Notes under the pieces: model-generated | The model's database searches: none | Told to the model about the DNA's origin: nothing | Seen by the model: the letters and a program-made list of their open reading frames with translations, nothing else | Part shown: piece by piece, positions 5,750-30,032 of the stretch | How the letters are laid out: each line of letters opens with the position of its first letter | Position numbering within the stretch: position 1 is the first letter of the stretch | Made by a program: the position numbers and the translations under genes | From: Bacteroidales bacterium | GTDB taxonomy: Bacteria; Bacteroidota; Bacteroidia; Bacteroidales; UBA932 | Length of the DNA: 64,000 nt | Reading direction: 5' to 3' | Assembly: GCA_016282145.1 (NCBI GenBank) | Contig: JAEEJZ010000021.1 | Span: 51,987-115,986 of the forward strand

Positions 5750-5777
5750 CTTTCGATTATTAAGTCAGCAATCTGCA

Positions 5778-8700: not shown

Positions 8701-9233
8701 TTACCGGTAAAGGTAATGGTGGCAACGCGGTCGGTATCTGGCGACGTACCTGCGGCACGCTTGATGGGAAGCTTGATCATCGCACAAAGCGGAGCAAGCG
8801 TAGCCCCGGAGGCATCCTCGGTATAGGCGGCCATCGGATAGGCACCACTGGCAAAGCCGTCCGCTTCGTATTCCTGCGTATCCGGCAGCGTAATGGTGCT
8901 TTCGTCCTTGTACATCACCGACGGATAGAGCACATTGCAGGGCTTTGTGTAATATTCGGTGAAATCGAAGACGGCAGTAACACCGCCGGCCGCTTCTTCA
9001 GTCAGGGGTTCGGATGCAAGGCCATTGATGGCAATGCAGTCCCCCGCCGCCCAGAAAATCTTGCGTTTGGCATTTTCTGCCGGGCCCAGCGTGGTCTTTA
9101 CATCGGAGAGACCGACACCGAACTGTGCAACGATCTTTCCGCCCTGTCCGGACTCAGAAGTTCCGGTCTCTTCCTTCGCGCAAGCCGCGAGCACTCCCGC
9201 TGCGGCGAGCAAAATGAAAAATCTGAACTTCAT
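5778..9233 (-). CDS. GLUG-repeat (beta-helix) surface lipoprotein with N-terminal fimbrillin-like module
   Basis: ORF track starts at a GTG (9245); ATG at 9233 gives MKFRFFILLAAAGVLAAC lipoprotein signal; many GGIVG...NC..G.V repeats. Confidence 0.85.
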   Translation of the reverse strand: MKFRFFILLAAAGVLAACAKEETGTSESGQGGKIVAQFGVGLSDVKTTLGPAENAKRKIFWAAGDCIAINGLASEPLTEEAAGGVTAVFDFTEYYTKPCNVLYPSVMYKDESTITLPDTQEYEADGFASGAYPMAAYTEDASGATLAPLCAMIKLPIKRAAGTSPDTDRVATITFTGNAGEQVCGDFTIDYANATLTGASDAEADKSLVINVKHTPGSEPLPIVLVIPAGTYDSGFSIKVVDVAGHYMELSKDVSFTVEAGHLYVMPEFEFIPTGTELGVQISSAADLIAFAQNYNSKAVSANTIATLTADIEFDAESSAAFNATGGIGMKKAEYNDTEDYYFDGLLNGNGKTISGLASTVSLFKAIGSSGKVQDLTLDNTCSFTFTHRKSVELYAAAVVGYHKGLLDNVNSAADVTLAPVSDVTAMTTVGGLAGRVTVGTLQNCEYSGLISTPADFKGTGKLIIGGIVGRFTNEGIIKDSYFRGAISNAARITSSDKSNPYTIIGGIAGHVNGGATLFAANATADHEAVPSAYDGLSGTIVSKSTIAHHSAIGGLVGELYKGVVYDCKNSATIAVSIFRGGDATGRYIKSGGIVGKCAKEGSIEGCENNGTVEHRSNPRIQDMGGIVGYNDGTVTSCTNNAAVSQMSSGQAIKAGRVVSLGGIIGQNTATALVTDVHNTANIEISSMEDGTSSQVRIGGVIGLNYAEIDGGESKNITNHGQVYFSPNFSNQFLGYALGGIVGDTEASIYNVKNLGTVYFRWNSADNAIGKAYLGGIVGSVSGKSALTLSGCENAHTTGTEGQVYFRVGPGTGNFIGGILGYAETDVTLSECTNAGYIDYKLNYLLTDATIDGGVGGVIGSHAAGKKVSLLDCTNVGEVFFDKGNSGGTAEKDEGKFTDSYAGGIMAKGADVVIDGCANAGYVHGGNDIRHNNTASYVGGIVAYVTGASSILNCKNTGNVFNIDNNNSDGYKETPYAGGIAGFAEGTEMSPLIIGGDNGCIVDAASIRSQRGWVAGAVAYAKYVNISSCTVKQSISVSACHYAAGILGQAQNCNILSCAFEGATLHANNAVGTGIGGIVAKMDNSVVDGCASYATAFEMTGENVAGGAVVGISESGNIIRNCHYKPTINDAPANIAGTGSFTDGGGNVADL

Positions 9234-9234
9234 A

Positions 9235-9357
9235 CTACCATTCACTTACATTTTCTTCATAAACATCAGGCGTGGTCACTCCACCGCTCTGATCCAGGAG
9301 TGCCTCCTGGGGGATAATGCAAAAAAGCATATCCGGGGATTGATAATCAGTTTTCAT
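9235..9357 (-). CDS. Small ORF, 40 aa: MKTDYQSPDMLFCIIPQEALLDQSGGVTTPDVYEENVSEW (not in supplied ORF track)
   Basis: ATG to TAG open frame filling the gap between two lipoprotein genes; stop TAG lies 1 nt before the ATG at 9233. Confidence 0.55.
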   Translation of the reverse strand: MKTDYQSPDMLFCIIPQEALLDQSGGVTTPDVYEENVSEW

Positions 9358-9376
9358 TATTGAGTGGTCTAAAAAA

Positions 9377-11887
9377 TTACCATTGTACAGTCCTGCTATA
9401 AGTATTTCCGAAGCGGTCGGTCACTGATACGGTTCCGCGATTGGGCGTAGCCGTTGCCGGTGCACGGAACATCGTGGCGATTTCACCCACTTCACTGGCC
9501 GGATAGCCGTCATCGCCGGTGAGGAAACCGACATTCGCCTTATAGTGGGACTTGATCTCAGTGTTCGCGAGATCGTATATCTTTTCTACATCTTCAACAT
9601 AGTCCCCCCCTACATCGTGAAGCAGGGTCATTTGCACGGGCGTACCGCCTTCCGGGGTCCAAACGGGCAATTCCCATTTGCTGTCCCAGAGGAACACATT
9701 GGCATAGACATAGCCGTCCCCATACGCACCGCGCGGGTAGACGTGCAGTTGATAATCCTCCGTCAAGGCACCGCTGCCATCCTTCATGACCGCCACGCCG
9801 CTGCTGTTATAGTCCCAGTCGCGCCGGTTATAAGCCGGAGGGCCGGCAAGACAGATTTTGGAAGTGACACCGACAAAATCACCGGTCTGGCGGGTAAGCG
9901 GATGGAAGCGCCAACTGATTTCGCCGTTATTCACTTCCACAATCGTAAAACCGCGAGGGGTTCCGGCCGCAAGGTACTCATTGGTCCAGAGTTCCCCGGT
10001 GGAACGCGCCAGGGTATGCACCTGCACCCTCTTGTGGCGATGATTGTCGGGATAATTATAATTGAAGCCTACGTGCGTATGGCCCGCCCAGGCGTGAACC
10101 TCCGCATAGTCGTTGAGAAGGTCTCCGTAATCCGGACCGTGCAGGGCCGTATTGGAGCGCTCGCTTCCGTTGATGTACTTGAACATCGGAGAATGAGCGC
10201 AGACCATCAGTTTGGTACTCGTCGGAATATAGGACAAATCCGCCTGCAACCAGGCCCAGATCTTATCCGTCAGGCCCTGGTCAAAACCCGTGAGCTTGTT
10301 ACTGTTATCCGGGTTCGGCTTCATGATCAGATTATCCAGCATCACATAGTGGATGCCGCCGATGTTGAAGGAATAGTTTCTGGGGCCATAGTACGACTCA
10401 AAGGGCTCGGCTCCGGCATCATCGTCCGCCGCAGAGGGATTATTGTCGTGGTTGCCGATGATATTATAGGTAGGATAGCCGAGCCGTGCCAAACCCGTGT
10501 TGTAATTGTCAAACAGGGACATCTTTTCGTGTACAATGTCACCCAGGCAAATCCCATAAACCTGCCGGCCGGAAATTCCGGCTGCCACATCAGCGAGTTC
10601 ATCGTACAGGTCTTCACAGACATCCAGCGACTTGAAAGCGATGCGGTCATTGTTCCAGTCATCATACTTCCGCGGCTGCGGATCCGCCGTAATCAGCAGG
10701 GTATAGCGGTTGGGATTCTCCACCGGCGTCAATACAAAGTCGCCAAAGTCATATACACCGCCCGAAGGAGTGATATCGGCCTTGGCCTTGTAGAACTTCG
10801 GGATGCCGTTTACCACCTGCGGCATGTAGCCGGAAGGGGTGCTCAAATAGACAAACTTCACATCCGCAACGACACTCTCCATGTAGAAACTGCCGTCGAA
10901 CATCGTCCGGACGCACTGCGTGCCGTCGGAAACCACGACCCCTTCCAGTCCGCTGCCGGCGTTATCCACCACGCGACCGGTAATGTTGAAGCCGTCCGGC
11001 TCCAGCACCTCCTCTTCAATGGCTTCAATCTCGAAACTCGTCGCGATGGACGAAGGAACGAAAGTGAAAGCGGTCATCTTCTTCAGGCTGCCAGCATCCA
11101 GCGTAGAGGCTGTACTTTTCACCTTGGTCATCGTCCGGTGCTGATTATCCTCGAGGACAACGCGGAAGCCGCTCGCATACTCCCCTGCAGGGACGACGAG
11201 ATAGAGTTCCAGCGGAGTCCCGCTGACCAGCGGCTGCGCCACGTTCAGCACCAACTCCCTTCCCTCTCCGGACTCAGCGGCCGGAGAGAGGGAGGGAACG
11301 GTATAGTCGATGCTGAAATCGCCGCAGACCTGTTCGTCCGCATTCCCATAGAACTTCACGGTGGAAAGCGACGATGCGCTCACGCCGGCATCCTTGCTGA
11401 CCGAGAGTTGCAGCACGGCGCAAAGGTGCCCGAGCGAAATCTTTCCGGAGACAGATTCCACATAAGCGGCAAGGGGCTCCGAATTACTTGCGAAAGAACC
11501 TGCGGCGTACGCCTGCTCTGCCGGAAGGGTGATGGTCGATGCATTCTTCCAGAAAGAGGCCGGATACAAAAGGTTGAAAGGAGGGTTGTGCACGCCAGGG
11601 AAGATGAAGGACGCAGAAGAGGCCTCCTCCCCGACGCCGGATAGCGGATAGGATGCGGTACCGTCCAGGGACAGGCAGTCCCCGTCGCACCAATAAATCT
11701 TCCGCTTTCCGTCTACAGACGGTCCCATAACCGTCTTTCCGCCCGCATCCTGAAGACTTACATCCAGGGTGGTCACACCCTCGGAAAGTCCGTCAATCAT
11801 ACCCGACTCCGGCTCTTCCACCGAACAGGCAAAAGCCAGGGTGGAGAGCAGGAGTACAGGAATACGCCACAAATTTCGCATACACAT
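9377..11887 (-). CDS. Lipoprotein: N-terminal fimbrillin-like module + calcineurin-like phosphoesterase
   Basis: 836 aa; LAFAC lipobox; ADPQPR, GDIVHE, GNHDNN, CAHSPMF, WAGHTH; ends GTVSVTDRFGNTYSRTVQW; clear paralogue of 3284..5749. Start may be the internal Met at 11881. Confidence 0.87.
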   Translation of the reverse strand: MCMRNLWRIPVLLLSTLAFACSVEEPESGMIDGLSEGVTTLDVSLQDAGGKTVMGPSVDGKRKIYWCDGDCLSLDGTASYPLSGVGEEASSASFIFPGVHNPPFNLLYPASFWKNASTITLPAEQAYAAGSFASNSEPLAAYVESVSGKISLGHLCAVLQLSVSKDAGVSASSLSTVKFYGNADEQVCGDFSIDYTVPSLSPAAESGEGRELVLNVAQPLVSGTPLELYLVVPAGEYASGFRVVLEDNQHRTMTKVKSTASTLDAGSLKKMTAFTFVPSSIATSFEIEAIEEEVLEPDGFNITGRVVDNAGSGLEGVVVSDGTQCVRTMFDGSFYMESVVADVKFVYLSTPSGYMPQVVNGIPKFYKAKADITPSGGVYDFGDFVLTPVENPNRYTLLITADPQPRKYDDWNNDRIAFKSLDVCEDLYDELADVAAGISGRQVYGICLGDIVHEKMSLFDNYNTGLARLGYPTYNIIGNHDNNPSAADDDAGAEPFESYYGPRNYSFNIGGIHYVMLDNLIMKPNPDNSNKLTGFDQGLTDKIWAWLQADLSYIPTSTKLMVCAHSPMFKYINGSERSNTALHGPDYGDLLNDYAEVHAWAGHTHVGFNYNYPDNHRHKRVQVHTLARSTGELWTNEYLAAGTPRGFTIVEVNNGEISWRFHPLTRQTGDFVGVTSKICLAGPPAYNRRDWDYNSSGVAVMKDGSGALTEDYQLHVYPRGAYGDGYVYANVFLWDSKWELPVWTPEGGTPVQMTLLHDVGGDYVEDVEKIYDLANTEIKSHYKANVGFLTGDDGYPASEVGEIATMFRAPATATPNRGTVSVTDRFGNTYSRTVQW

Positions 11888-11895
11888 ATCAAAGA

Positions 11896-14800
11896 TTAAA
11901 GGTTAGCCACGTTGCCGCCACCGTCGGTATAGGAACCGGAGCCGACAATAGTAGCCGTCGCAGCCGTTCCTGCTTTCGGCCCTTCAACTGCAGATTTATA
12001 ATGGCAATTCTGAATCGTATTGTTCGAATTAGACTTACCAACAACACCGCCGAAAGGCTGTGAATTACTATTGTAGAACTTTGTGGCATAGCAGGAACAG
12101 CCGTCAATCAAGCTATTATCCATATTCCCAACAATTCCACCGAGACCGGTACTGGCCTGTATCTGGTTTGCCTTGACTTTGTCACCATTGAAACTACTGC
12201 TACTGATTGTGCAGTATTCCGCTTTGCCCACGATGCCTCCGGCGCCGCGCGCTGCAGCATCAATATCATTCTCGACTGTACAATTGCTAATTTGAGCATA
12301 TTTCGCATAGGCTGCAACACCTGCAATCCAGCCACGGGTAGCGTTAAGTACAGACGATGTATTGACCGTGCAACCGGTAGTTCCGCCAATCTCAATAAGG
12401 ACCTCACTTGTACCTTCAACGAACCCCACAAGACCGCCAGTAAGAGTAGTACTGCCGATAGTGTCATTATTACCAGACTGAGTACTGGCAGTACTGCCGG
12501 TATTTGAGCAGTTCAGTATTTTGCAAGCTCCCTTCATATAAGCCGCAATACCACCAATGTAGAACGAATTGCCAGCGGCAGAGCTGCTGTTTCCACCTGA
12601 TATTGCACCAGTATTGGAGCATCCCGTAATGGTGATATCCTGCTCAGTTTTACCGAGGATACCGCCAACATAAAGATCATTCATAGCAACAGCTGCTGCG
12701 GTTATGGCCATATTGATGGCACCGCCATTGTTCTTGCAGTTCGAGATTGTTCCAGGAGCGTCCATGCGCCCAACGACACCAGAAACAATCAAATCATTTA
12801 TGAGACCTTTGTTGTTGGAAACATCCACGTTGCCGCTATTGTCGCAACCTGTAACGGTGACATCAGACTCGTTGATGACATACCCCACGATGCCACCGAG
12901 GTAGTTGCCACTATGGCTGTCGGTGCTTTCGGTGCATGCGATGAGATTAATACGAACGCGACCGCTGTTGTCAGCGTTATCGACTTCTCCGAATCCGGTC
13001 ATCTTACCGATGATACCGCCCATCATAATGCCCGTAACCGGCACCGTACTGGCGCCAGCCGCAGTACGGACCTCACCACCGTTTGTGCAGTTCTTGACGG
13101 GGTTGGTGGCTTCGGTAAGTCCCACGATGCCGCCTACATAGTTCGTATTGTGACCAGCATTGCCAGGCAAGTACAGGTAAACCTGAGCTGAGTTAGTAAC
13201 GCCTGAATCCACAATATTATCGCAGTTCTCAATAGTACTCTCGGCTCCTGCAGCCTTTCCGACGATTCCTCCGAGGTGGACATTACTAGCCCCGATGGTA
13301 GTTCCTTGCCAGCGGAAATAAGTACGTCCGACATTCTTGGCGTTTTTAACGGATGCTTTAGTATATCCTACAATACCTCCGAGGTAATAGCCTGCAAACT
13401 GAATAGGGAAGTTGGGGGAATGATAGACCTGGCCGGAGTTTGTGATGTCCTTGGACGCTCCGCCTACGACGATACCTTCGTTATAACCGATCACACCGCC
13501 CATCCTTTCTTCGGCAGATCCGGTTTCTTCCATGGAGGAGATTTCAATATTTTCCGTGTTGTGAACGTCAGAAACCTTGTTGTCGGCATAGTTCTCGCCA
13601 ATGACGCCACCGAGATTAACTGAACGCGCGCCGGGAATGGACTGGCCTGAAGATGAATGATTCACGGCCGCATTATTTGTACACGCCGTAACGGAACCGG
13701 CATTGTAGCCAACTATTCCACCAAGTGTCTGGATTCTCGGATTGGACCTGTGGTTAATGCTACCATTGTTCGTGCACCCGGTTATGACACCGTCCGCCCT
13801 GTTCGTGCCGACAATACCGCCGGATTTTATATAACGTCCGCTAGCGTCCCCTCCTCTAAAGATAGAGTTGCCAATAGTTGCAGCGTTGGTGCAGTTTGAG
13901 ACTGTGCCGTTAATGACTTCTCCAACTATACCACCAACTGCGGAATGATAGGCTACTGTAGTTTTGTTCACGATAACAGCGCTCAAGCTCGCGTGTGCGC
14001 TTTCAACAGGTGCATGGTCAGCGGTAGCGTTACTGGACGAAACAGTTGAACCGCCATCCATATGACCGACTACACCTCCGATGATAAGGAAAGGATTGGC
14101 TTTATCTGTAGATGAAACATGTGCGGAATTACTGATAGCGCCCTTGAAATAGGAACCCGTAATACTGCCGGAGTTGGAGAACCTTCCGACAAGACCGCCG
14201 ATAATAAGTTTCCCTGTTGTGGTGAAACCGGCCGGAGTGGAAATAAGTCCGGAGTACTCACAACTATTCTGGAGCTTACCGACTGTTGTACGGCCCGTCA
14301 AACCGCCTACGGTAGTCATCTTTGTAATGCCGGAGACTTCCTCAAGTTCAATATCCGCCGCAACCTTCACATTGTCAAGAACGCCTTTATGATAGCCGAC
14401 AATGGACGCAAACATAGCCTCAGCCTCATCAGTATGCGTAAAAGCGAAGGAACAGGAATTATCCAAAGTCAAATCCTTTACCAGACCCTTATCCATTCCC
14501 GCAAAGAGAGGAACGGTAGCCTTAAGTCCGCTGATTGTATGACTATTTCCATTAAAAACGCCATTGAAATAATTGTCTCCTCCGTAAGGAGTACCTATAC
14601 CGCCAGTCGCATTGAAAGCGGCAGAGGTAGTCTCGTCAAAGGTTATGTCGGCAGTAACGGTTGCAACGAGGTCGTCGCCATACTCCTTATTGTTATATGC
14701 CGTGGCAAAGTCGATAAGATCCTGGGCGCTGGAGATTCCTACGCCAAGTTCCGTTCCGGTAGGAAGGAACTCGAATTCGGGCATATTGTAGAGATGACCG

Positions 14801-15582
14801 GCTTTCAGTTCATTGTTGGGGTCCTTGAAGGAGGTCTTGCTCTTGGTCATAATATGACCGTTCACATCCTGCACGATGACATCAAAGCCGTTGGAATAAG
14901 AACGGGCAGGGACGACCAGGTAGTAATCAATGGCCGTAGTGGTGGAAGTAGCCTGGTTCTTCACCACGCGGACTTCCAGGTCAGCGCCGGAGCCGGTAGC
15001 CGCCGCAAGGGCAGGCGTCTCATAATCAATGGTAAAATCACCACTCACCTGCTCATTATTGCGGCCCTTGAAGCGCACGGCGATGATATTGTCCTCGTCG
15101 GCGTCAGTGGCAGCCCTCTTGATGGAAATCTTCAATACCGCGCAGAGGTGTCCGAGAGAGATGTTGCTTCCGTCAGCCGAATAGCCCGCCATGGGGTTCA
15201 TGCCCTCGGCAAAGCCGCCGGACTTGTAGGTCTGAACCGCAGGAAGGGTAACGTGCGTGGCATCCTCGTAAATGGAGGCGGGATAGAGCACATTGTAGGG
15301 AGTGCTGAGCACGCCGTCGAAAGTAAAAGTAGTACTGGTGGTTCCTTCCGGAAGATCGGCAAGTTCTTCGGAGGCGGTGCCGTTCACGGCAATCTGGTCG
15401 CCATTGGACCAGTAGATGTGACGGGTAGTACCCTCACGGTCTCCCATGTGGGTCCTGGAATCGGAGAGACCGACCGTAAGGACGGTCTTGGCTTCATTGA
15501 TAACGTCAATGTCCTGAACTTCCTTGGCGCAGCCGGCCACCAGGGCGAGGGCTGCCATCAGATAAAAATAACGTGTTTTCAT
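11896..15582 (-). CDS. GLUG-repeat (beta-helix) surface lipoprotein with N-terminal fimbrillin-like module
   Basis: 1228 aa; MKTRYFYLMAALALVAGC; paralogue of 5778..9233 along its length; ends GSGSYTDGGGNVANL. Confidence 0.86.
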   Translation of the reverse strand: MKTRYFYLMAALALVAGCAKEVQDIDVINEAKTVLTVGLSDSRTHMGDREGTTRHIYWSNGDQIAVNGTASEELADLPEGTTSTTFTFDGVLSTPYNVLYPASIYEDATHVTLPAVQTYKSGGFAEGMNPMAGYSADGSNISLGHLCAVLKISIKRAATDADEDNIIAVRFKGRNNEQVSGDFTIDYETPALAAATGSGADLEVRVVKNQATSTTTAIDYYLVVPARSYSNGFDVIVQDVNGHIMTKSKTSFKDPNNELKAGHLYNMPEFEFLPTGTELGVGISSAQDLIDFATAYNNKEYGDDLVATVTADITFDETTSAAFNATGGIGTPYGGDNYFNGVFNGNSHTISGLKATVPLFAGMDKGLVKDLTLDNSCSFAFTHTDEAEAMFASIVGYHKGVLDNVKVAADIELEEVSGITKMTTVGGLTGRTTVGKLQNSCEYSGLISTPAGFTTTGKLIIGGLVGRFSNSGSITGSYFKGAISNSAHVSSTDKANPFLIIGGVVGHMDGGSTVSSSNATADHAPVESAHASLSAVIVNKTTVAYHSAVGGIVGEVINGTVSNCTNAATIGNSIFRGGDASGRYIKSGGIVGTNRADGVITGCTNNGSINHRSNPRIQTLGGIVGYNAGSVTACTNNAAVNHSSSGQSIPGARSVNLGGVIGENYADNKVSDVHNTENIEISSMEETGSAEERMGGVIGYNEGIVVGGASKDITNSGQVYHSPNFPIQFAGYYLGGIVGYTKASVKNAKNVGRTYFRWQGTTIGASNVHLGGIVGKAAGAESTIENCDNIVDSGVTNSAQVYLYLPGNAGHNTNYVGGIVGLTEATNPVKNCTNGGEVRTAAGASTVPVTGIMMGGIIGKMTGFGEVDNADNSGRVRINLIACTESTDSHSGNYLGGIVGYVINESDVTVTGCDNSGNVDVSNNKGLINDLIVSGVVGRMDAPGTISNCKNNGGAINMAITAAAVAMNDLYVGGILGKTEQDITITGCSNTGAISGGNSSSAAGNSFYIGGIAAYMKGACKILNCSNTGSTASTQSGNNDTIGSTTLTGGLVGFVEGTSEVLIEIGGTTGCTVNTSSVLNATRGWIAGVAAYAKYAQISNCTVENDIDAAARGAGGIVGKAEYCTISSSSFNGDKVKANQIQASTGLGGIVGNMDNSLIDGCSCYATKFYNSNSQPFGGVVGKSNSNNTIQNCHYKSAVEGPKAGTAATATIVGSGSYTDGGGNVANL

Positions 15583-15725: not shown

Positions 15726-15750
15726 AATTAATTGATTGATTTATAGATTA

Positions 15751-18609
15751 TTACCAATTTATGCTTTGTGTATAGGTATTTCCGAACATATCCGTAACGC
15801 GGACCTCTCCACCCTTGCTGCCTTCTCCGGGCGTTACGCTGAAGAGGATCGCCTTGGTGGACGGGGTGCAGTACTTGCGGTTCTTGGCGTTGTCGTAGGT
15901 CTGGAAGAGCGCATAGTAGGCCGGATCCACCCCGGGGGTGAATTCCATATCGGCCACCTTGACGCCGTTTTCGTACCACTCGGGAGTGCTCCAGCCCTCG
16001 GACCAGTTCCAGATATTGACTTTTACGCTGCCGTCGCCCTCCTCATCCGGGGCATAGACGCGCATCTGGTAGTCCTTGTCGTGGCCGACTCCCTTGTAAT
16101 ACCAGTCTACTTCATCGCCGCGCACGTTCATCACCATATAGCCCTGGGGCTCGCCCATCGCACCGATGGGACGGTTGAAACGCAATGCGCCCGTAGCCCT
16201 GGCCACGCTGATGCACTGGATGTTCGGCGCACCGTGCTTGGTGTCCTTACCGTAGTGGTTCGCGTAGTTGTAGTAGAAATTCTCGTGGTTGTGCCCGTTC
16301 CAGGCATAGACCGCCTTGAATTGGGAGAGCAGCGCCAGATAATCCGCATAGTGCCGGGCGTAGAAGTTATGGGAACCGTGCGGAGAACTGTTCGGGGTCT
16401 TGAACAGGTTCTGATGCGAACAGGTCATGATGACCTTGTCCTTCGGCACATAGGAGAGGTCGGCCTGCAGCCAGGCGAGAGTGCGGTCGTCCAGGCCATA
16501 ACCATACTTGTCCTTCGTGGTCTTGCGGTCATACATGATGGTATTGACGACGATGTAATGGATGTCTCCGAGGTCGAAGGAATAGTGCTCGGGGCCCACA
16601 TAGGTCTCGAAGAAGACATTCCCCTGCTCCGTTTCGAAGAGGGTCATCTGGTCGTAGTCGTGATTGCCGATGACGTTGAAGGTCGGGCAATTGATCTTGG
16701 CGGCGACATCCAGATAGTCGTCCCAGGCATACATCTCGTTATAGACCAGGTCGCCCAGGTTGATGGAATAGACATTCCCCTTGCAGGAGGCACGGAAGGC
16801 CTCGGCGTCGGGAGCGACAGTGTCGTTCCAGCGTTCCATAGATTCGTCCCAGCCATAGGGGCGCACCTGCGGGTCGGCAATCATCATTACGGTGTAGTCC
16901 TTAGAGACCGGCTTTTGGGCAATGGTGAAATTGGCCTGTACGGCCTTAGCATAACGCGGAATCCGCTTGAAGAACTGCGGAACGCCGGCGCGCAGGGGAA
17001 ATTCCGCCGTTGCGGGGAGGCTCAGGTAAATAAAGCGCGCCTCGCTGAGGTCGCTTGTCATCGAATAACTGCCGTCCGCCGCCGTCAGGACGCACTGGCG
17101 GCCGTCAGTGACGACGATTCCCGCAAGCGGCTTACCGTCGACGGTCTTGACCGATCCGGTAACATTAGGAGCAGTCAGGTAGACGTCCGAAGGCTGCAGC
17201 ACGGTGGCGTAATCATCGGCGGCAGCGCCACCGGTAGTGACGAAGACCGACGTGGCGACGATGTTGCCCTTCCGGCCGGATTTGCAAAGGATCTGGCCGT
17301 CGTTGGAGCAGTCTTTCACAAAAGCCCGCATACCCTCGCGGCATTCGGTATAGCCGACGACGCCCGCCGCGTGGATCGCGTTGCGGTTGTTCGCTTCGTA
17401 CTTGTTTCCGCCAGCATCGGCATAAATGCTGCCGTGATTGACGCATTCGCGCACGTAAGCGCCTTCCGTCTGGCTCTTGGGGCAATAGATGTTGCCGACG
17501 ATGCCGGCTGCGGTGCTGCGCGCACGCGAACTGATGCCCTCGAAGCGGACTTCGCCGAAATTGACACAGCCGCGCACGTGCACGGGACGGCCGATGTTGC
17601 CGACAATGCCTCCGGTATGCGAAGGCTGCTCGCCCTCGGAAACGATTTTCCCGTAATTGCGGCAGTCGGCGATGACCAGCGATTCGTGCGGCATCGCGAC
17701 GATGCCGGCGGTATAACTGCCGCAGGCACCCTTCGAGCGCACTTCGCCGAAATTATCGCAGCGCAGGATGTGCGCCTTGGTCTGTCCGGCGATGCCGGCC
17801 GCGCGGCCGATGGAGTTAACCGCCCCCTCTTCCGTCGCACGCACTTCGGAGGAGATGTTCCCCTTGTTGATGCAGTATTTGACGGTGGAACGGTTGGCGT
17901 TGCCGGTGATGCCGCCCAGATACTGTGCGGCGAGCGAACCCACTCCGGAGAGGTTGCCGTAGTTTTCGCAATGGGCAATGACGCTGGAAGTATTGGGTTT
18001 CGCCCCACAGAGTCCGGCGATGCCGCCCATGCTCAGGTAGACTTCCTCTTTGGTGACTCCGGCCACATCGGCGTTCAGGTTACCGAAGTTGGCGCACTGC
18101 TTGATGACAAAGCGGTTGAAGCCCGCAATGGCGCCGACGGACACTTCCGCCAGCGCATATTCGCACTTGAGGGAAACGCTGCCGTAATTGACGCAGTCGC
18201 TGATGATGCCGAAGTTGGAATCGGCGATGAAGCCCGCGTGGAAGGCATTGCCCTTGGCTACCGCATTGAGCGAGCAAGTCTGGTCGATGACGATTCCGCT
18301 CACCTCCGCCGTACGCGTCAGTTCCGCGAAAAGGCCATAGGGGGTCTTCCAGCCCTTGAGGGCATGACCGCAACCATCGAAGCGACCGCTGAAGGACTTG
18401 ACCTGCGGGAACTTCTTGGCCTTGGACATATCAATATCGGCCGTGAGGACCACCACCGAATCCGCGTTGCACCAGGGCAGCAGGGATTCTCCCTTGTTGG
18501 CAGCCTCGATGAAGGCTTTGAGTTCCGCCATATTGCCGATGCCCTGCGCACAGAGCGCAAGACTCAGGGAAAGCAAGAGGAGGAAGGTGACTAATTTTCT
18601 CATTACCAA
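15751..18609 (-). CDS. Fusion protein: N-terminal GLUG-type repeats + C-terminal calcineurin-like phosphoesterase
   Basis: 952 aa; N-half GGIAGLCGAKP.., GGIVGNIGRPVHVRGCVNFGEV repeats; C-half IADPQVRP, GDLVYNE, GNHDYD, CSHQNLF, WNGHNHEN; ends GEVRVTDMFGNTYTQSINW. Confidence 0.88.
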   Translation of the reverse strand: MVMRKLVTFLLLLSLSLALCAQGIGNMAELKAFIEAANKGESLLPWCNADSVVVLTADIDMSKAKKFPQVKSFSGRFDGCGHALKGWKTPYGLFAELTRTAEVSGIVIDQTCSLNAVAKGNAFHAGFIADSNFGIISDCVNYGSVSLKCEYALAEVSVGAIAGFNRFVIKQCANFGNLNADVAGVTKEEVYLSMGGIAGLCGAKPNTSSVIAHCENYGNLSGVGSLAAQYLGGITGNANRSTVKYCINKGNISSEVRATEEGAVNSIGRAAGIAGQTKAHILRCDNFGEVRSKGACGSYTAGIVAMPHESLVIADCRNYGKIVSEGEQPSHTGGIVGNIGRPVHVRGCVNFGEVRFEGISSRARSTAAGIVGNIYCPKSQTEGAYVRECVNHGSIYADAGGNKYEANNRNAIHAAGVVGYTECREGMRAFVKDCSNDGQILCKSGRKGNIVATSVFVTTGGAAADDYATVLQPSDVYLTAPNVTGSVKTVDGKPLAGIVVTDGRQCVLTAADGSYSMTSDLSEARFIYLSLPATAEFPLRAGVPQFFKRIPRYAKAVQANFTIAQKPVSKDYTVMMIADPQVRPYGWDESMERWNDTVAPDAEAFRASCKGNVYSINLGDLVYNEMYAWDDYLDVAAKINCPTFNVIGNHDYDQMTLFETEQGNVFFETYVGPEHYSFDLGDIHYIVVNTIMYDRKTTKDKYGYGLDDRTLAWLQADLSYVPKDKVIMTCSHQNLFKTPNSSPHGSHNFYARHYADYLALLSQFKAVYAWNGHNHENFYYNYANHYGKDTKHGAPNIQCISVARATGALRFNRPIGAMGEPQGYMVMNVRGDEVDWYYKGVGHDKDYQMRVYAPDEEGDGSVKVNIWNWSEGWSTPEWYENGVKVADMEFTPGVDPAYYALFQTYDNAKNRKYCTPSTKAILFSVTPGEGSKGGEVRVTDMFGNTYTQSINW

Positions 18610-20279
18610 CTGATTGTAGATGAATATTCATTACCGAAGCGATCCGTTACCTTGACGGTGCCGGTCTTGGGTCCCTTCGGGTCCACAAAGACGCGGAACA
18701 TCGTTTCGCAGTTATCGGTAGTCTCGGCGAAGGAACTGTCCGTAGACAATTTGCTGTTGTTGAGCCTGTAGTATTGGCGCATCTCCTTGTCAGCGTAGGA
18801 AAAGCGGAATTTCTTGTCGGTCACCCGCGTCATCGGAGTGGGAACGCCGTCGGCATAGAAAGTCGGCTTTTTCCAGAGCTCGTCCCAGAGGAAGATATTG
18901 GCGTAGAGATAGTCGTCGCCATAGGTGCCGGGGGCGAAAAGCTGCATCTGGTAGTTCGCGTCCAGAGGGGTGGAACCGGAGCCGCGCAGAATCGCCTGAC
19001 CGTTCAGGTAGTCCCAGTCGCGGTACGTATAGGAAGGAGCCGCATATTTGCTGGGGTAGGTGGCTGAATAGGCGCCGGTCTGGTAAAAGATGGGCTTGAA
19101 ACGCCAGTTGACATCGCCGTGATCGTAGTCAAAGACGACATAACCGCGCGGCGTACCGTTGCTGCCCATATATTCGTTGGTCCAGAGCGGACCGGTCACC
19201 CGCGTGAGCGTATGGGTCTCGATGACGGGATTGTCCAGGTTCACATAGTTGCAGGTGGTGTGCGTATGGCCAGCCCAGGCATAGACTTTCTTATACTTGG
19301 AAAGCAGGACCCGGTAGTCTGAATAATGCATGGCACTGCTGCGTTCGCCGCCGCCCAGCAGATGGAACATCGGCGAATGGGCGCAAATCATCAGCGTCGT
19401 GCTGAGGGGCACGTAGGAGAGGTCGTTCTGCAGCCACTGCCAGATTTCGTCAGTCAGGCCGGTCGCACATTCGTCGCGGTTCTTTCCGGTACTCTCGTCC
19501 GGAGAAATCATATCGTCCAGCACGATGAAGTGCAGGCCGCCCAGATTGAAGGAAAAGTTGGTGGGGCCAAGGTACGATTCGAAGGTCTTGCAGGCTGTCT
19601 TGTCGTCGGGTTTTTCCACATCGTGGTCGTGATTCCCGATGACGCTGTAGGTCAGCACACCGGCGTCCGCCATCCCCCGCATATACTGGGGCAGGAGCTT
19701 AAGTTCCCTGTGCACGATGTCCCCCAGGCCGATGCCGTAGACCGGACGGTCCGTCATCGTGGCGCGCAGTTCCTTCATATCCTTGTACATATCGTTGCAG
19801 CAGTCCAGCGCGTGATAGCCCATCTTGTCATAGTTGGCACCGCGGCCGCGAGGCTGCGGGTCAGCGAAGATGAAGACCGTGTAACGCTCGGGGTTGGCAA
19901 TCTTGTTCAAGGTAAAGTTCACCCCGGAATATTTGCCGTCGCTGCCTTTGGTGAGGTCTTTGTAAAACTTCCAGAAAACGGGAAGGCCGTCCACCAGGGG
20001 CGCACTGGCGCCGGAAGGGGTGGAGACATAGACATAATCCCGCTCCGAGAGGTCGGAATCCAGCCAGTATTTACCCTGCGCATCCGTCAGAGTGCAGGCA
20101 TAGCCGTCAGAGACCATCACCCCGGCGAGGGCGGTGCCGTCATCCAGAAGGACGGCACCGCTCACCGTATAGTGATCCGGCGTAACAGGCCCGACGGGGC
20201 CCGGCTCCGGTCCCTTTTCGCCGCAGGCGGAAAGGGCCAGAAGCAACAACGCCAGAAGAGGAAATCTTTTCAGCTTCAT
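18603..20279 (-). CDS. Calcineurin-like phosphoesterase lipoprotein
   Basis: 558 aa; LLLLALSAC lipobox; FADPQPRG, GDIVHR, GNHDHD, CAHSPMFH, WAGHTHTT; ends GTVKVTDRFGNEYSSTISW. Confidence 0.88.
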   Translation of the reverse strand: MKLKRFPLLALLLLALSACGEKGPEPGPVGPVTPDHYTVSGAVLLDDGTALAGVMVSDGYACTLTDAQGKYWLDSDLSERDYVYVSTPSGASAPLVDGLPVFWKFYKDLTKGSDGKYSGVNFTLNKIANPERYTVFIFADPQPRGRGANYDKMGYHALDCCNDMYKDMKELRATMTDRPVYGIGLGDIVHRELKLLPQYMRGMADAGVLTYSVIGNHDHDVEKPDDKTACKTFESYLGPTNFSFNLGGLHFIVLDDMISPDESTGKNRDECATGLTDEIWQWLQNDLSYVPLSTTLMICAHSPMFHLLGGGERSSAMHYSDYRVLLSKYKKVYAWAGHTHTTCNYVNLDNPVIETHTLTRVTGPLWTNEYMGSNGTPRGYVVFDYDHGDVNWRFKPIFYQTGAYSATYPSKYAAPSYTYRDWDYLNGQAILRGSGSTPLDANYQMQLFAPGTYGDDYLYANIFLWDELWKKPTFYADGVPTPMTRVTDKKFRFSYADKEMRQYYRLNNSKLSTDSSFAETTDNCETMFRVFVDPKGPKTGTVKVTDRFGNEYSSTISW

Positions 20280-20284
20280 AAGAA

Positions 20285-23179
20285 TTACAGATTACCACCC
20301 CAATATCCGATATCGCTGCAAGTGCCAAGGCCGTTGCCGACAGCATAGTCTGCGACATTGTTCTCGCTGATATCCACACCGTTGACCTTGCCGCCGAACT
20401 TGCAGTTCTCCACGACGGTCTGGGCATCGGCCGTACCGACGATGCCGCCGCAGCTGGACGGACTGGTCCCGGAATTCACGCTCAGGACACCGAAGTAGCG
20501 GCAGCCGCTGACCTTCACTCCCCCGCCCATCGAAACCGAAAGGATTCCGGCGGGCATCTGCACGGCACTGGCCGGATTGGAGCAGAAGATATTGTTCTTG
20601 GCATCGCAGTTCGTAATGGTGGAACTGGCCAGCGCGCAGGCGATACCGCCCTTGTTAGGCGCGTTGCTACCGGTGATGCTCAGGTCGCCAAGGTGCTGGC
20701 AGCCCGTGATGGTCGCATTCCTCGCGTAGCAGACGATACCGGCGGAGCAGCCGCGGTAAGATTCGATCGTAGCGTAGTTGGTGCAGCCGTCGATGGACAG
20801 GGTTCCGCCCTCGGAGGTCGGTTTGTTGTCAAAGGCGCCCAGGATACCGGAAGCGCAGCAGGCCGTATACCAGCCATTGCTGGTGTTGCCATAGATAATG
20901 TTGCTGTAGTGGCGGTTCGTAATCTTACCGTTGTTATAGCACTTGGTAAAGACCGCATCGCCACCCAGTACGACACCCGCGATACCGCCGTACACCAGCA
21001 TATAGTGCTTGCTGTTGGCGCAGTTGAGGGCGGAAGAAGTCACCTTTCCCATTTCTCCCGCATTGCTGCAGTTGATGAAGGTGGACTTTCCGTTGATGAA
21101 ACCGGCCACGCCGCCGAAGAAGGCGTGCAGCGGCTGGGAAGTCGTGGAGGTGTTCAGATAGGCGGTGGTGATTTCGCCCATATTGGAAATGTTCTCAAAC
21201 TGGATGGATTCCACCTTGGCGTCAGGATCGCAGCCGCCCAGGATACCGCCCATCAGGATATAAGAAGATGTACGGGAGGCCGTCTGGTCAAAAGAAAGGT
21301 TGGTCTGGGGGCTGTAGCCCTTGAAATTGAGAGTTATCCCGCCTTCCGCCTTTCCGACAAAGCCGCCCATAAAGATCTTCGTATCCGTGCCGCTCATATA
21401 GGATTCGAGGTCGATCGACCCGAGGGTGACCGACGCATCGGAAGCCGCGTCGAAATTATGGTCGCAGTCGACACTGCCGTAAAGGCCGCCTACACAGAGA
21501 GAAGAAGCATTTCCGCTCACGGTGAGGGTTCCCATATAGGAATTGCTCTCGCAGACGGCGCCATCGACCAGTTTTGCCTGAATACCGCCCAGCAGCGCAG
21601 TCTTCAGCGCGGAGGAGAAGGACATTTTACCGGTATTCTCGCAGGAGGAAAGGGTGCCGAGGCACTGACCAGCAATACCTCCCGTGTAGCAAGGCATATC
21701 CGCAGAGGGACAGGTGACCGCCACATTACCGCTCATCTTGCAATTTTCGATACGGGTCTGCTCATCGGCAAAGCCGCAGATACCGCCGACATAGGCAATA
21801 TCGTCATCCGCGGTGGTGCCTGCATACTGCACGAGTCCGGCCATATTGCATTTACTGAAGGTCGTAGCATAGGCCTCGCTGGCGATACCGCCCAGGAACG
21901 CTTCGCCTTCGACATTCTTGGCATCCCAGTAAATCTTGGCATCCTTGCCCAGCACGACGTTGCTGATGATAGCACCGTTGCAAACGTTGAACAGGCCGGC
22001 GGTCCCTTTCTTGATATTGTCAATCGAATGGCCCATACCGTTGAATCTACCGGAGAAAGGATGTGCCTTGGTCCCGATGCCGGCCCAGCCGGACACCTCG
22101 CTCATATCGATATCACCCTTCACGCAGACGACACCGTCGGTTTCCCAGTCGGTGGTGGGCTCCCCTGCCGCTACGGCAGCGGCGAAGGCCTGCATTCCCT
22201 TATGGGTTACCAGACCGTTCGCAGGAATGTAATCCTGTACGATCACCGGAAGACTGACCAGGGAAGCGGAAGCGTTGGAAAGCCGCATAGAGACGGCGAC
22301 ATTGCGCTTCTCCGAGCAATCGCTCAGGTTTTCCGCCAGTTTGACGGTCAGGGTCACGAAACCGTTGTCCGGATCGCTCATCTGATACTCCGCCATCTTT
22401 TCGGGAGCAATCACCTCGGAAACGAAGAATTCCGGAACCACGATGGAAACGGCGGCCGCCGTACCAGGCAAGAGGATATGCCCTTCGGCATCGAAGGTAT
22501 ATTCGGAGCCGAACTGATAGAGATAGATGTATTCCTCTTCCTCGCCGCAGCGGAGCGTAACCTTGCCCAGACGGGAAGGATCCGTGTTGTTCTGCGACTT
22601 GACCTTGAGTACGGAGGTTTCAAATTCCCCGTTGGGAACGGGATTGGCGGGAACGACCGTCAGGAACGGATCGGCCGTATAATCCCACTGGGCGCCGGCC
22701 AGGGTCGTCACTTTCACCTCGAACTCCTCGGCCTGCGGGCCGGAAAGGAAGTAGGGCTGAGACAGGCTGAAGGCCGATGCGCTCTGGCCGACGGTCAGGG
22801 AGAAGCCGCGGAAATCCCCCGCTACGAAAGACAGGGTCGCATTGTCGCGAGGCTCGAAACCGTCATTGGCATTCACTTTAATGATGACCTTCCCGGGACC
22901 CTTCCCTGCAGGGGAAAGGACCTGACACCAGTCACGGTTGGAAACGAGATTCCAGACCAGGTTGTTGTCGTTGAGCGCGACATCGATGGTCTTGGTCCCG
23001 GCAAAGTGGGTGAAGTTCAGTTGACTCACCGCCGCACCGCCCAGGGTATAGGACACCTCAAGGTCGGTGACCGTACGGGAGTCCAGGATTTCCTGGTCCG
23101 TGGGCTTGTCCTTCACACAGGAAGACAGCAAGCCCAGAGAGAGGACCGCTAATATAGTATAAAGGTATGTGTGTTTCAT
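20285..23179 (-). CDS. GLUG-repeat lipoprotein with N-terminal BACON-like domain
   Basis: 964 aa; LGLLSSC lipobox; NRDWCQVLSPAGKGPGKVIIKVNANDGFEPRDNATLSFVAG resembles BACON; then GGI.G repeats. Confidence 0.8.
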   Translation of the reverse strand: MKHTYLYTILAVLSLGLLSSCVKDKPTDQEILDSRTVTDLEVSYTLGGAAVSQLNFTHFAGTKTIDVALNDNNLVWNLVSNRDWCQVLSPAGKGPGKVIIKVNANDGFEPRDNATLSFVAGDFRGFSLTVGQSASAFSLSQPYFLSGPQAEEFEVKVTTLAGAQWDYTADPFLTVVPANPVPNGEFETSVLKVKSQNNTDPSRLGKVTLRCGEEEEYIYLYQFGSEYTFDAEGHILLPGTAAAVSIVVPEFFVSEVIAPEKMAEYQMSDPDNGFVTLTVKLAENLSDCSEKRNVAVSMRLSNASASLVSLPVIVQDYIPANGLVTHKGMQAFAAAVAAGEPTTDWETDGVVCVKGDIDMSEVSGWAGIGTKAHPFSGRFNGMGHSIDNIKKGTAGLFNVCNGAIISNVVLGKDAKIYWDAKNVEGEAFLGGIASEAYATTFSKCNMAGLVQYAGTTADDDIAYVGGICGFADEQTRIENCKMSGNVAVTCPSADMPCYTGGIAGQCLGTLSSCENTGKMSFSSALKTALLGGIQAKLVDGAVCESNSYMGTLTVSGNASSLCVGGLYGSVDCDHNFDAASDASVTLGSIDLESYMSGTDTKIFMGGFVGKAEGGITLNFKGYSPQTNLSFDQTASRTSSYILMGGILGGCDPDAKVESIQFENISNMGEITTAYLNTSTTSQPLHAFFGGVAGFINGKSTFINCSNAGEMGKVTSSALNCANSKHYMLVYGGIAGVVLGGDAVFTKCYNNGKITNRHYSNIIYGNTSNGWYTACCASGILGAFDNKPTSEGGTLSIDGCTNYATIESYRGCSAGIVCYARNATITGCQHLGDLSITGSNAPNKGGIACALASSTITNCDAKNNIFCSNPASAVQMPAGILSVSMGGGVKVSGCRYFGVLSVNSGTSPSSCGGIVGTADAQTVVENCKFGGKVNGVDISENNVADYAVGNGLGTCSDIGYWGGNL

Positions 23180-23191: not shown

Positions 23192-24931
23192 CTATTGTCT
23201 GCCAAGAAGCCTGGTATCACGACTCTCCTGCGTAGCGGCCCACCAGACATCGGTCTGGATGTTGTTCGTGCCGCCGAGCCAGCCGTCTACCGCTTCCTGA
23301 TAGTAAACGGTGTTGCGGTAAGGCTCGTCCGAAGGATAGCGCATACGCGTAGGAAGGATGTGGTCGTTGCCGGCGGCGGGGCCGTCGGTACGCAGCAGCG
23401 GGTAGCCCGTGCGGCGGTAATCGCACCAGGATTCGATGCCGATGAAGAAGTTCGCGAGCCATTTCTGGGTCAGGATACCTTCAAGGGCATTGTCCGAATT
23501 GAAAGTGCTGCCGCTGTAGAGTTCACCGTTGACGACCCAGTTGACATACTCGACCACTTCGTCGGATTCAGCGTTCACATAGGGATTCCATTCAAGGATA
23601 CTCTCGGTAACGGCCTGCCTCAGCAGGGCCAGATAAGCACCGAAACTCGAAGCGGAACCGACCCAGCCACGGACGCCGGCCTCGGCGAAGATGAAGAGCA
23701 GTTCGGAATACTGCATCAGCGGATAGTAGGGCGCATTCTGCAGGTCATAGACTTTTCCGGTGATGCCTGAACCGGCATTCCTGCCATAGACCATACGGCC
23801 GATGACGGAGTTGCCGGCATTGGACAGATGGGTCGCCAGGAACTTGGTCACATCGGAACCGACCATCTGGTTGGGCATTCCGTGCACTTTGCGCCACCAG
23901 CAGTCATAGCGGGGATCTTCCCGGTGTCCGCCCTGCGACGAGAGCACGGATTCGTAATAGGTAATGCCGTTCTCGTCCACTTTCTTCGTGGTGGAAAGCA
24001 TCCGGCGCGTCAGCACGTCGCAGACGGCCACCGTGTTCCAGTTTCCGGAAGTGGTGGAGTAGAAGGGAGTATGCTCGGTCTCGTTCTGGTCGCTGAACGG
24101 AATCATCGGCCGCTCGTCGCGCGAACGCAGCATAGGATAGTCGCCACCGCCGCTGAGGAAGCAGCTGTACATTTCGGAGAGCTTGTTGGAGATGTTCACC
24201 GAACCCCACTTATCGTCACCGAGTTCCAGGGTGCCGCCGTCCTCTTCCATAACCTTCATACCGACGCGCATCAGCACGCGGGCGTAGAGGGAGTTGCCGA
24301 AGCGGCGCCACAGTTCGTAATTGCCGCTGTAGGTCTTGTCGCAGATGGCGTTGAAGGAAGGAACGTCATCCACGTCCTGCGCAAGGAGTTCGTTGGCGGT
24401 TTCCAGCATACAGATGACGGATTTGTAGATTTCCTTCTGGCTGTCGTAGCGGGTGGTGTATTTGCCATCGCCCTCGCGCAGGGAGAGCAGGCCCGCCTCC
24501 TTGAAGGGAATATCGCCATAGGTATCCGAGAGCTGGGTGATCAGGAAGGAACGCAGGATCAGGGCGACTGCCTTGATTTTGTCGTTCTTCTCCTTGACCG
24601 CCTGCTCGTACATCGCCATGGCGTTGCCGTACTGGAGGTAGAGTCCGGTCCAGATATCGTCGGAAGTACCTTCAGGGATGTTGTAGTTGCCGATGACGCG
24701 GGAACTGACTTCGGAATTGGTCATTACCGCGTACTGGGAGAGGTAGACCGTCGTACCCCGGAACACGCTGATCAAGTTGTACTGGGTCTTGAACATGATG
24801 GGATGCACGTAGGACTCCGCCGGCGCCGTTTCCAGCGCGTAGGGGTTCTTGCTCATTTCATCGAACTTGGAACAAGAAAGAGAAAGGAGCGCCAGTGCAA
24901 GTATCGCATTGTATTTCATTATCTTTTTCAT
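23192..24931 (-). CDS. SusD/RagB-like nutrient-binding outer membrane lipoprotein
   Basis: 579 aa; LLSLSCSKFDEMSKNPYALE; directly downstream of the SusC gene. Confidence 0.85.
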   Translation of the reverse strand: MKKIMKYNAILALALLSLSCSKFDEMSKNPYALETAPAESYVHPIMFKTQYNLISVFRGTTVYLSQYAVMTNSEVSSRVIGNYNIPEGTSDDIWTGLYLQYGNAMAMYEQAVKEKNDKIKAVALILRSFLITQLSDTYGDIPFKEAGLLSLREGDGKYTTRYDSQKEIYKSVICMLETANELLAQDVDDVPSFNAICDKTYSGNYELWRRFGNSLYARVLMRVGMKVMEEDGGTLELGDDKWGSVNISNKLSEMYSCFLSGGGDYPMLRSRDERPMIPFSDQNETEHTPFYSTTSGNWNTVAVCDVLTRRMLSTTKKVDENGITYYESVLSSQGGHREDPRYDCWWRKVHGMPNQMVGSDVTKFLATHLSNAGNSVIGRMVYGRNAGSGITGKVYDLQNAPYYPLMQYSELLFIFAEAGVRGWVGSASSFGAYLALLRQAVTESILEWNPYVNAESDEVVEYVNWVVNGELYSGSTFNSDNALEGILTQKWLANFFIGIESWCDYRRTGYPLLRTDGPAAGNDHILPTRMRYPSDEPYRNTVYYQEAVDGWLGGTNNIQTDVWWAATQESRDTRLLGRQ

Positions 24932-24946: not shown

Positions 24947-27900
24947 TTAGAATGTGAGACTGATGGAACCGCCGAACTGTGCCGTCGACGGCATCTGCAG
25001 GATTTCGAAGCCCGGGATGACGGCGCTGCCGCGCATCGTCACGCCCTCGGGATCGAAGCCGGGGAATTCAGACCAGCACCAGATGTTGTTGCCGTAGACC
25101 GAGAAACTGGCGCCGCTGAGCACCTTGGTCTTGGCGAGCAGCTTCTTGGGCAGGGAATATTCGAGCCGCACTTCGCGCAGTTTCAGGAACTGCGTGCTGA
25201 CGAAGTTGGCCTCGCCGTTGGTCTGTTCGTACTTGTTGTGGTAGTAGGTGGCGATATTCGCGGGATCGATAGCCGTCGTGTTCACCACGTAGTTGCCGTC
25301 CGGCAGCAGCCGGACACCTACGGGAACGAGGCCGCCTTCGCGACCGGCGAGCGTCGCCGTACCCTTACCGCGGTAGTTGAGCACCCAGTTGGTGTAGGAA
25401 TAGACGTGGCCGCCCACCTGGCCGTCGAAGCCGATGTAGAAGCTCAGGTCTTTCCACTTGAGGGTGGTATTGAAGCCGCCCTTCCAGTCGGGAGCGCAGT
25501 CGCCCAGGTACTGGAGGTCCGTACCGGTCTGGTAGAGGTTCTGGTTGTCCAGGACGGGCAGACCGGAGACATCGACCATCTTGCCGTCCGCCGTGATGGC
25601 GGTAGAGCCTTCCGGTGCCCGGACATAGCCCTTGCCGTACATCGAGGTCAGGCTGCCGCCCTCATAGGCAATCATATAGGCGTGCGTGGAGTAGGAGGCG
25701 ATGATCCAGGAATCGATACCCTCGCCCAGGGAGACGACGGTATTGCGGTTCATCGTATAGTTCAGGCCGACCTTCCACTGCAGGTCGCGGGTCTTGACGA
25801 GGGTTCCGGTCGCGGAGAGTTCCACTCCCCTGTTGCGGATGGAACCGGCGTTCACATACATATAGTTGACACCGTTGGCGTAAGAGACCGGCATCTGGGA
25901 GATCAGGTCCTTGGTGACGGCGTCATAGTAGGCGGCGTCCAGGGTGAAACGGTTCTTGAACATCCGCAGTTCCAGACCGACTTCCCAGGAACTCACGATT
26001 TCCGGACGGAGGTTGCTGTTGACGCGCGTGGCGGGAAGCGACACGGTTCCGGGGAATCCGGTGCCCTGCAGATAGTTGGCGATGCGGTAGGGAGCCGTAT
26101 CGTTACCTACCTGCGCCCAGGAGGCGCGGATCTTCATCAGGTTCACCAGACCGTTCGTGCGTCCGAACTCGAAGAGGTCGTTCAGGGAAACGCTTCCGGA
26201 AACGGAAGGATAGAAGAAGGAGCGGTGACCGGCCGGCAGGGTGCTGGACCAGTCGTTACGACCGGTGACATCGAGGAAAATGGCGTTCTTCCAGGAGAGG
26301 GAGAGCATTCCGTAGAGGGAATTGGTCTGCCGCACATAGGAAGAATTCGAGGTCTTGGGCTCGTAGGAAGTGTTCACCAGGGAATAGACACCCGGGATGT
26401 TCAGGGCGCCGGCGGTCTGCGCGTGGTTGGAATAACTGCGCCAGATGATGCTGCCGCCGATGTTCCCGGTGAATTCGAAGTCGCCGGCGAAGCGGGTGTT
26501 GTACTTCAGCAGGAAATCGCCGGAGTACTGCTTGGAGCCGATGGTCTGCTCCTTGTACCAGCCCTGCGGTTTGGCCTGGGTAGAGGTCGGCTGCCGCTGG
26601 GTACGGAAGTCGGTGATGATGTCCAGACCGCCGCGGGCCATCAGCGTGAGGCCTTTCGCCAGATCGGCATTGAAGACGACGTTGCCGTAGACGCGGTCGC
26701 GCTTCTGGTTGTTGATCGCCTGGTAAGCCAGGAAGTAGGCGTTGTTCTTGCCCCCGGAGAGGCTGGCGTCCTGCTGGAAGGCAGCTTCGTCCTTCCAGTA
26801 GAAGGAAGGCCACTTCATATCAATGTTCGGCGCATAGCACCAGAGGCTGTACATAATGGCCGTGGAGCCGTAGCCGGAAGATACGGGAATGTTGTCCTTG
26901 CGGGTGTTACGGTAGTTCACCGAGGTCTCCAGCTTGAGCCACTTGGCCAGGCGGCTCGTGGTGCGGACCGCCAGGAAGTTAGTCATACTCGGGGAATTGG
27001 GAACGATGCCGTTTACGCTGTTGTTGGTATAACTGACGCGGACGCTGTTGTCCTTGCCGATCTTACCGGACATCACGATGGAGTTCGAGAAGGTAAGTCC
27101 CGTCTGGAAGTAGTTCTGGAACCAGTCCCCGTAACTGACGAACGGGGTTTCGTCACGGACGAAATCACCGATTTCGTTGAAGTGTCCGCCGATGCCCTGC
27201 GCTATATTATAATATTGGTAATAGGGCGTCCCGTCCATCTTCGGACCCCAGGACTCCATCCCCGCGGTATTGACATAGTCTGAACGCGGATTGATGCCTG
27301 CGACATCCTCACCCTCGCCGGAGACCAGATAATAATAGTAGTTCAGGCCCGCGGTACCCTGTCCGTAGGTATACTGCAGGTCTGGCGAAGAGAGCACCTT
27401 GTCCGCTGCGAAGCTGGACTTGATGCTGACGCGGAAGACCGCATCCTGGCTCTCGGCGTTCTTCGTGGTGATGATGATGGCGCCGTTGGCCGCCTGCGAA
27501 CCGTAGAGGGCCGTAGCGGCGGCACCCTTCAGCACGGTGACGCTTTCGATGTTGTTCGGGTCGATATCGGCAAGACCGTTGCCATAGTCGATGGCGTAGA
27601 TGCTGCCTTCGCCCGAATCGGACTGGGTGGCGGAGTTGTACATCGGCACACCGTCCACGACGAAGAGGGCCGTGTTGTTCTCCAGGTCTGCCGAGGATTC
27701 ACCGCGGACCGTGACACGCATCGTACCGTCGGGGCTGCTGGAACGGTCGATGTTCAGACCGGCCACCTGACCGGCCATACCGTTGATCCAGTTGCCCGTG
27801 GTGGCGCTGTTGACAAACATGTCCCCTTCCACCTTCTGGGCGGAATAACCGATGGATTTTTCATCCCTCTTGATACCGAGGGCCGTGACCACCGCGGTCT

Positions 27901-29501: not shown

Positions 29502-30032
29502 CTATTTTTTTTGAACCCGCTCCCGAAGATGCTTCATGGCGTTGTAAATGTGGTTCTCCACGGTGGAAAGGGAGAGCCCCAGGATCTGCGCGACCCGCCG
29601 GTTGGGAATGCCTTCGAGCCTCGACAGGACAAAGACCTCGCGGCAGCGGTCCGGAAGTTCGGAGAGCAGGGAAGAAACCTGCTCCTGGATATCTTCTGTG
29701 TAGAGTTTCCGGATTACGGGATCGTTGTCCGGATCGTACGCGGAATACTGCTGTTCTATCCGGTCCTTGAACCAAATCCGGTGGGCACTGTCATTCTTAC
29801 GGCGACGGAGTTTGTTCAGGCAGCCGTGCCAGACACTGTTCAGCAGATACAGACGCAGTTCCCTTTCGTCGTTCAGATACGGCAGCCGGAAGCGGTGGTC
29901 CCACACCCAGGCAAACACATCCTGCACGACATCCTCAGCTTCCTCTGCCGGGAGCATCAGCTTCGCATACGACACGAGCGAAGAGTAATGCTCGCGGAAG
30001 ACACGTTCGATGTTGTCCCGCGATACTGTCAC
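29502..30032 (-). CDS. ECF RNA polymerase sigma-70 factor
   Basis: 176 aa; AEDVVQDVFAWVWDHR and LPDRCREVFVLSRLEGIPNRRVAQILGLSLSTVENHIYNAMKHLR. Confidence 0.93.
   Translation of the reverse strand: MTVSRDNIERVFREHYSSLVSYAKLMLPAEEAEDVVQDVFAWVWDHRFRLPYLNDERELRLYLLNSVWHGCLNKLRRRKNDSAHRIWFKDRIEQQYSAYDPDNDPVIRKLYTEDIQEQVSSLLSELPDRCREVFVLSRLEGIPNRRVAQILGLSLSTVENHIYNAMKHLRERVQKK

Follow-up and report, generated by a model that had tools for sequence, protein, structure and literature searches.

We identified, within a Sus-like operon, a gene encoding a single 952-aa protein that joins a GLUG-type beta-helix to a calcineurin-like phosphoesterase, and we hold with about even confidence that this fusion is a conserved two-domain enzyme of single origin that serves a nutrient-uptake operon with surface-to-periplasm processing. 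Phylogenetic and identity comparisons across the window (the whole 64,000-nucleotide stretch of Bacteroidales DNA analysed here) and related genomes indicate that it is an old fused paralogue standing next to separate partners.

Domain architecture and predicted structure of the fusion

The original prediction described one protein with GLUG-type repeats in its N-half and a full phosphoesterase region in its C-half, an architecture confirmed by domain searches, catalytic motifs, a structural model and fold searches. The features of the gene are as follows.

15751..18609, minus strand: fusion gene, 952 aa, TTG start
18547..18609, minus strand: type I signal peptide (aa 1-21), cleaved behind A21, a residue shared by all 35 orthologues, whereas Cys varies
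17185..18546, minus strand: GLUG-type beta-helix half (aa 22-475), from a window-derived GLUG profile (n=9), an AlphaFold2 solenoid and a Foldseek match to 3n6z
15754..17181, minus strand: calcineurin-like phosphoesterase half (MetallophosN, core, MetallophosC; aa 477-952), from Pfam PF16371/PF16370 and a Foldseek match to GpdQ (TMt 0.65)
16924..17157, minus strand: MetallophosN, PF16371 (aa 485-562), Pfam 2e-17, 63.6 bits, above the curated cut-off
15772..16167, minus strand: MetallophosC, PF16370 (aa 815-946), Pfam 6e-27, 95.2 bits, above the curated cut-off
16867..16875, minus strand: metal motif I, D579-P-Q581, found in 34/35 aligned sequences

Only part of the domain assignment was returned by Pfam itself, as PF16371 and PF16370 were called but the other two domains named originally, Glug (PF07581) and Metallophos (PF00149), gave no match to the fusion even at E≤10. 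Both of these regions are nevertheless present in substance, given the window-derived profile (nine repeats at aa 129-440, with a few of the training repeats coming from the fusion itself), a 958-aa orthologue (G200:C15) with a Pfam Glug match above the curated cut-off, the AlphaFold2 model, and the fold search, which supports the catalytic fold despite the missing PF00149. PF00149 does match the neighboring phosphoesterase at 18603-20279. NCBIfam held no family matching the fusion, and a sequence search of solved structures returned none with the single fusion sequence and three weak matches with an alignment (best E 0.3). All five metal-ligand motifs are complete in the fusion (DPQ 579-581, GD 619-620, GNHD 648-651, H732, and GHNH 772-775), with Q in motif I where the calcineurin-like superfamily usually has H, and because they are complete in every operon copy of the fusion examined, the fused phosphoesterase half should be active.

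AlphaFold2 modeled the fusion confidently (pLDDT 90.7, pTM 0.90) as a long beta-solenoid N-half followed by an alpha/beta C-half. The BACON + GLUG lipoprotein encoded at 20285..23179, modeled the same way, reached an equal pLDDT (90.1) with a pTM of 0.72, a comparison that suggests fixed, rigid packing of the predicted fusion halves, although pTM by itself does not map the error between domains. Foldseek searches with the fusion model revealed matches to GpdQ, SMPDL3 and purple acid phosphatases, as well as to 3n6z and 6xja, with the 3n6z match presumably attributable to the N-half; 3n6z is a solenoid described as GLUG-like (PMC4021314). In the same search, the matches of the BACON + GLUG neighbor were mostly to tandem Ig-like domains, fell on its BACON/Ig part and were uninformative for GLUG.

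Placed against known proteins, the fusion has both flanking domains of the PF16371/PF16370 phosphoesterases and, like the family members sampled, reads DPQ at motif I, but differs from them in that PF00149 does not call its core and a GLUG half is attached; our literature search did not find a function for this family. The GpdQ glycerophosphodiesterase and SMPDL3A/B rank near the top of the fold matches to the catalytic half, yet the fusion is only ~15% identical to them and carries D-P-Q where their motif I is D-x-H. With the GLUG solenoids (3n6z BACOVA_03286 and the IgA1 proteases) it shares a beta-helix of GLUG-type repeats and fold matches (3n6z, 6xja), but it lacks a protease domain and is joined to a phosphoesterase instead. 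On the opposite strand, a 952-aa open frame (window 15736-18594, plus) mirrors the fusion and other long plus-strand frames face operon genes; these antisense frames show no sign of being genes.

The fusion sits in a Sus-like operon

The operon runs, in order, through an ECF sigma factor, FecR, SusC, SusD, a BACON-GLUG lipoprotein, a phosphoesterase lipoprotein, the fusion, and two GLUG/phosphoesterase lipoprotein pairs.

29502..30032, minus strand: ECF sigma factor (Pfam)
28478..29482, minus strand: FecR anti-sigma factor (Pfam)
24947..28462, minus strand: SusC/RagA TonB-dependent transporter (TIGR04056)
23192..24931, minus strand: SusD-like lipoprotein (SusD-like_2, Pfam 1.4e-52)
20285..23179, minus strand: separate BACON + GLUG lipoprotein, 964 aa (Pfam)
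18603..20279, minus strand: separate phosphoesterase lipoprotein, 558 aa (Pfam), overlapping the fusion start by 7 bp
11896..15582, minus strand: GLUG lipoprotein, 1228 aa, with a ~270-aa N-terminal domain in common with its phosphoesterase partner
9377..11887, minus strand: phosphoesterase lipoprotein, 836 aa, with the same ~270-aa N-terminal domain as its GLUG partner
5778..9245, minus strand: GLUG lipoprotein, 1155 aa, second copy of the pair
3284..5749, minus strand: phosphoesterase lipoprotein, 821 aa, second copy of the pair

Three separate pairs thus surround the fusion on the same strand, each with GLUG preceding phosphoesterase, which is the order of the fused halves, as the original prediction had stated. 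The phosphoesterases of the two downstream pairs (window 3284-15582) are sisters (SH-aLRT 99), and by this measure the pairs look like recent tandem duplicates. Their ~270-aa N-terminal domain resembles no Pfam family, and we therefore do not claim an Mfa-like identity for it.

Comparison across loci revealed that this context is conserved, with the SusC-SusD-GLUG-phosphoesterase-fusion order recurring in the loci of relatives and, in 31 of the 35 loci that had upstream sequence, the gene just ahead of the fusion being a phosphoesterase gene in the same orientation that overlaps it or lies within 43 bp. The remaining four, all Rikenellaceae/Alistipes copies, lie outside the operon. Two of these stand-alone fusions (L092:8001-10829 and L096:7947-10781) have lost metal ligands, with GD changed to GN and GHxH to GHTR or GHNL, and are likely inactive enzymes to judge from these motifs.

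Adjacent SusC and SusD genes (TIGR04056, SusD-like_2) mark the locus as Sus-like, and it shares with the Sus-like or polysaccharide utilization loci of Bacteroidota the combination of SusC, SusD, surface lipoproteins, ECF sigma/FecR and degradative enzymes in one operon. It differs from them in having no glycoside hydrolase, as Pfam scans of the operon proteins found no glycoside hydrolase or lyase family, and its enzymes are instead four phosphoesterases accompanied by GLUG beta-helices as accessory proteins. A GH3 enzyme lies near one relative and also near the L108 phosphoesterase, where it was identified by reading the L108 sequence rather than by domain search, and a carbohydrate esterase lies beside another relative; both hint that the substrate may be a carbohydrate-bound phosphate ester.

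Age and origin of the fusion

Near-full-length orthologues of the fusion were present in its own genome and 17 others among 200 same-genus genomes (45-67% identity; plus one copy cut by a contig end), and an independent collection contributed 41 loci, comprising 39 near-full-length fusions, one copy truncated at a contig end and one locus, from Arenibacter, with a phosphoesterase alone. The sources were mainly Bacteroidales of the rumen and gut, Alistipes and further members of the Rikenellaceae among them, with most Rikenellaceae/Alistipes copies being 39-41% identical to the fusion. Because near-full-length copies recur in many independent genomes, in the 200-genome set and the independent collection alike, the fusion is not an assembly artefact, a concern attached to the original prediction, and chance or a frameshift is likewise ruled out as its source.

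The claim that neighboring partners had fused was not borne out. A tree built from 45 phosphoesterase domains gathered every fused domain into one clade (SH-aLRT 99) and the separate phosphoesterases of the operon into another (SH-aLRT 100), the two being sisters except for one long solitary branch (L108) that joins the fused side with support of 88. A recent Rosetta-stone event, in which stop loss joined adjacent genes and left a fusion resembling the complex that today's neighbors form, would fit the shared order, shared strand and 5-28 bp gaps of the three neighboring pairs, but we regard it as very improbable: uniting the fused domains with those of the upstream gene costs 87 log units and is rejected (p-AU 9.9e-7), the fused GLUG half is just 22-34% identical to the best separate GLUGs, and the fusion is common to two families. 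Sister clades, the AU rejection and low GLUG identity together argue that today's neighbors were not what was joined, and the sequence data instead indicate either a single old fusion event or separate genes derived from an old split, and the ancestors of this GLUG/phosphoesterase pair may have been joined long ago. By Rosetta-stone criteria, both halves do have separate homologues that are functionally linked, namely the GLUG and phosphoesterase genes of the same operon; the tree, AU test and GLUG identities did not, however, place each half closest to its adjacent separate gene.

GLUG-phosphoesterase partnership and cellular location

A second, independent GLUG::phosphoesterase fusion occurs in the same genome (contig C32, L039:10370-14191, 1273 aa). 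Its Pfam Glug match of 16.5 bits lies below the cut-off of 20.5, which two homologues (G023:C2 and G200:C42) pass, and it is conserved nearly end to end in about a dozen genomes, with relatives of both halves also existing as separate proteins. Its phosphoesterase sits on a remote branch for which union with the first fusion clade is rejected (p-AU 6e-7), and its closest sampled relative has BACON/fn3 where GLUG would be. Adjoining it is a 1690-aa protein with phosphoesterase, fn3-like and GDSL-lipase regions (L039:5296-10368), and phosphoesterase proteins of comparable length (about 1660-1730 aa) occur in several genomes; on another contig of the same genome (C56), a phosphoesterase with a heparinase II/III-like C-terminal domain (L040:12003-15401) lies beside two other ~1100-aa phosphoesterase proteins. 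Several same-genus genomes carry a further locus type (L149-L152, L161) in which separate GLUG lipoproteins, relatives of the second fusion's GLUG half, are divergent from SusC-SusD-phosphoesterase genes. Across ten genomes, 7 of 28 Pfam-detected GLUG open reading frames had a non-fused phosphoesterase gene no more than 10 kb away, compared with an expectation of 1.5 (simulated P 4.5e-4, with imperfect independence as some GLUG genes share a locus). Our literature search did not find GLUG linked with calcineurin-like phosphoesterases, nor bacterial PF16370/PF16371 proteins described by those names.

Could GLUG simply be a generic extracellular spacer or solenoid, shuffled onto many enzymes, so that the fusion says nothing specific about a phosphoesterase partner? 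This is a somewhat doubtful but serious explanation, as MetallophosN/C phosphoesterases occur attached to BACON/fn3, GDSL lipase and heparinase-like domains as well, GLUG also occurs without phosphoesterase, including in DUF1735+GLUG proteins of polysaccharide utilization loci (PMC11216935), and most GLUG genes (21/28) and most of the genus's phosphoesterase genes are not near each other. Against it stand two independent fusions, the alternation of GLUG/phosphoesterase pairs in the operon, the neighborhood enrichment (P about 5e-4) and the confident predicted packing of the fused halves. The functional side of the originally proposed partnership is therefore strengthened by the second fusion and the enrichment and is supported, but it is not exclusive, since most family members lie elsewhere and the phosphoesterases have other fusion partners; as GLUG and phosphoesterase modules each occur in further combinations, a single fusion argues only weakly for a physical complex. 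Separate GLUG and phosphoesterase partners mostly carry lipoboxes, whereas the fusion was described as having a plain signal peptide, and this description held, the alanine just before the type I cleavage point (A21) being constant across the 35 orthologues and Cys variable. Given this invariant signal-peptidase-I Ala, the fused enzyme is probably soluble in the periplasm, next to surface lipoproteins, although several orthologues have an LLAC/LLSC-like stretch with a possible lipobox Cys within the signal peptide, which leaves the assignment uncertain. Those stretches would suit a fusion that is surface-located or secreted like its neighbors, its differing signal peptide being incidental, but this seems unlikely to us given the A21 site and a C-terminus in which the domain scan found MetallophosC up to the last residues and no additional sorting domain.

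Proposed function

Building on the preferred reading, an old two-domain enzyme probably acting in the periplasm, GLUG beta-helices would be the scaffolds on which the system holds its substrate, and MetallophosN/C proteins would act as dimetal phosphodiesterases or phosphatases. At the cell surface, SusD and the separate GLUG and phosphoesterase lipoproteins would together bind and trim a substrate bearing phosphate esters, which SusC would import. In the periplasm, the soluble fusion would then hold this substrate on its own GLUG helix, rigidly packed on the catalytic domain, and cut the remaining phosphate ester bonds, so that the system may be split between surface and periplasm. Fold matches of the catalytic half include phosphodiesterases (GpdQ, SMPDL3). 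Our guess is that the substrate is a phosphodiester-bearing glycan or a glycerophosphodiester. More speculatively, and in our view improbable though worth stating, gut Bacteroidales may possess a dedicated phospho-polymer utilization system in which dimetal phosphodiesterases, each with a GLUG module, replace glycoside hydrolases, with surface pairs followed by a fused periplasmic processor and a substrate such as a teichoic-acid-like polymer or phosphoglycan; a literature search on teichoic acid with SusD returned nothing relevant.

The fusion gives a testable function to two uncharacterised modules, the GLUG helices and the MetallophosN/C enzymes, and offers as a single-chain construct for structure determination and substrate screening a pair that would otherwise need reconstitution. 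It further suggests that, among the Sus-like operons of rumen Bacteroidales, some are built on phosphate-ester rather than glycosidic cleavage.
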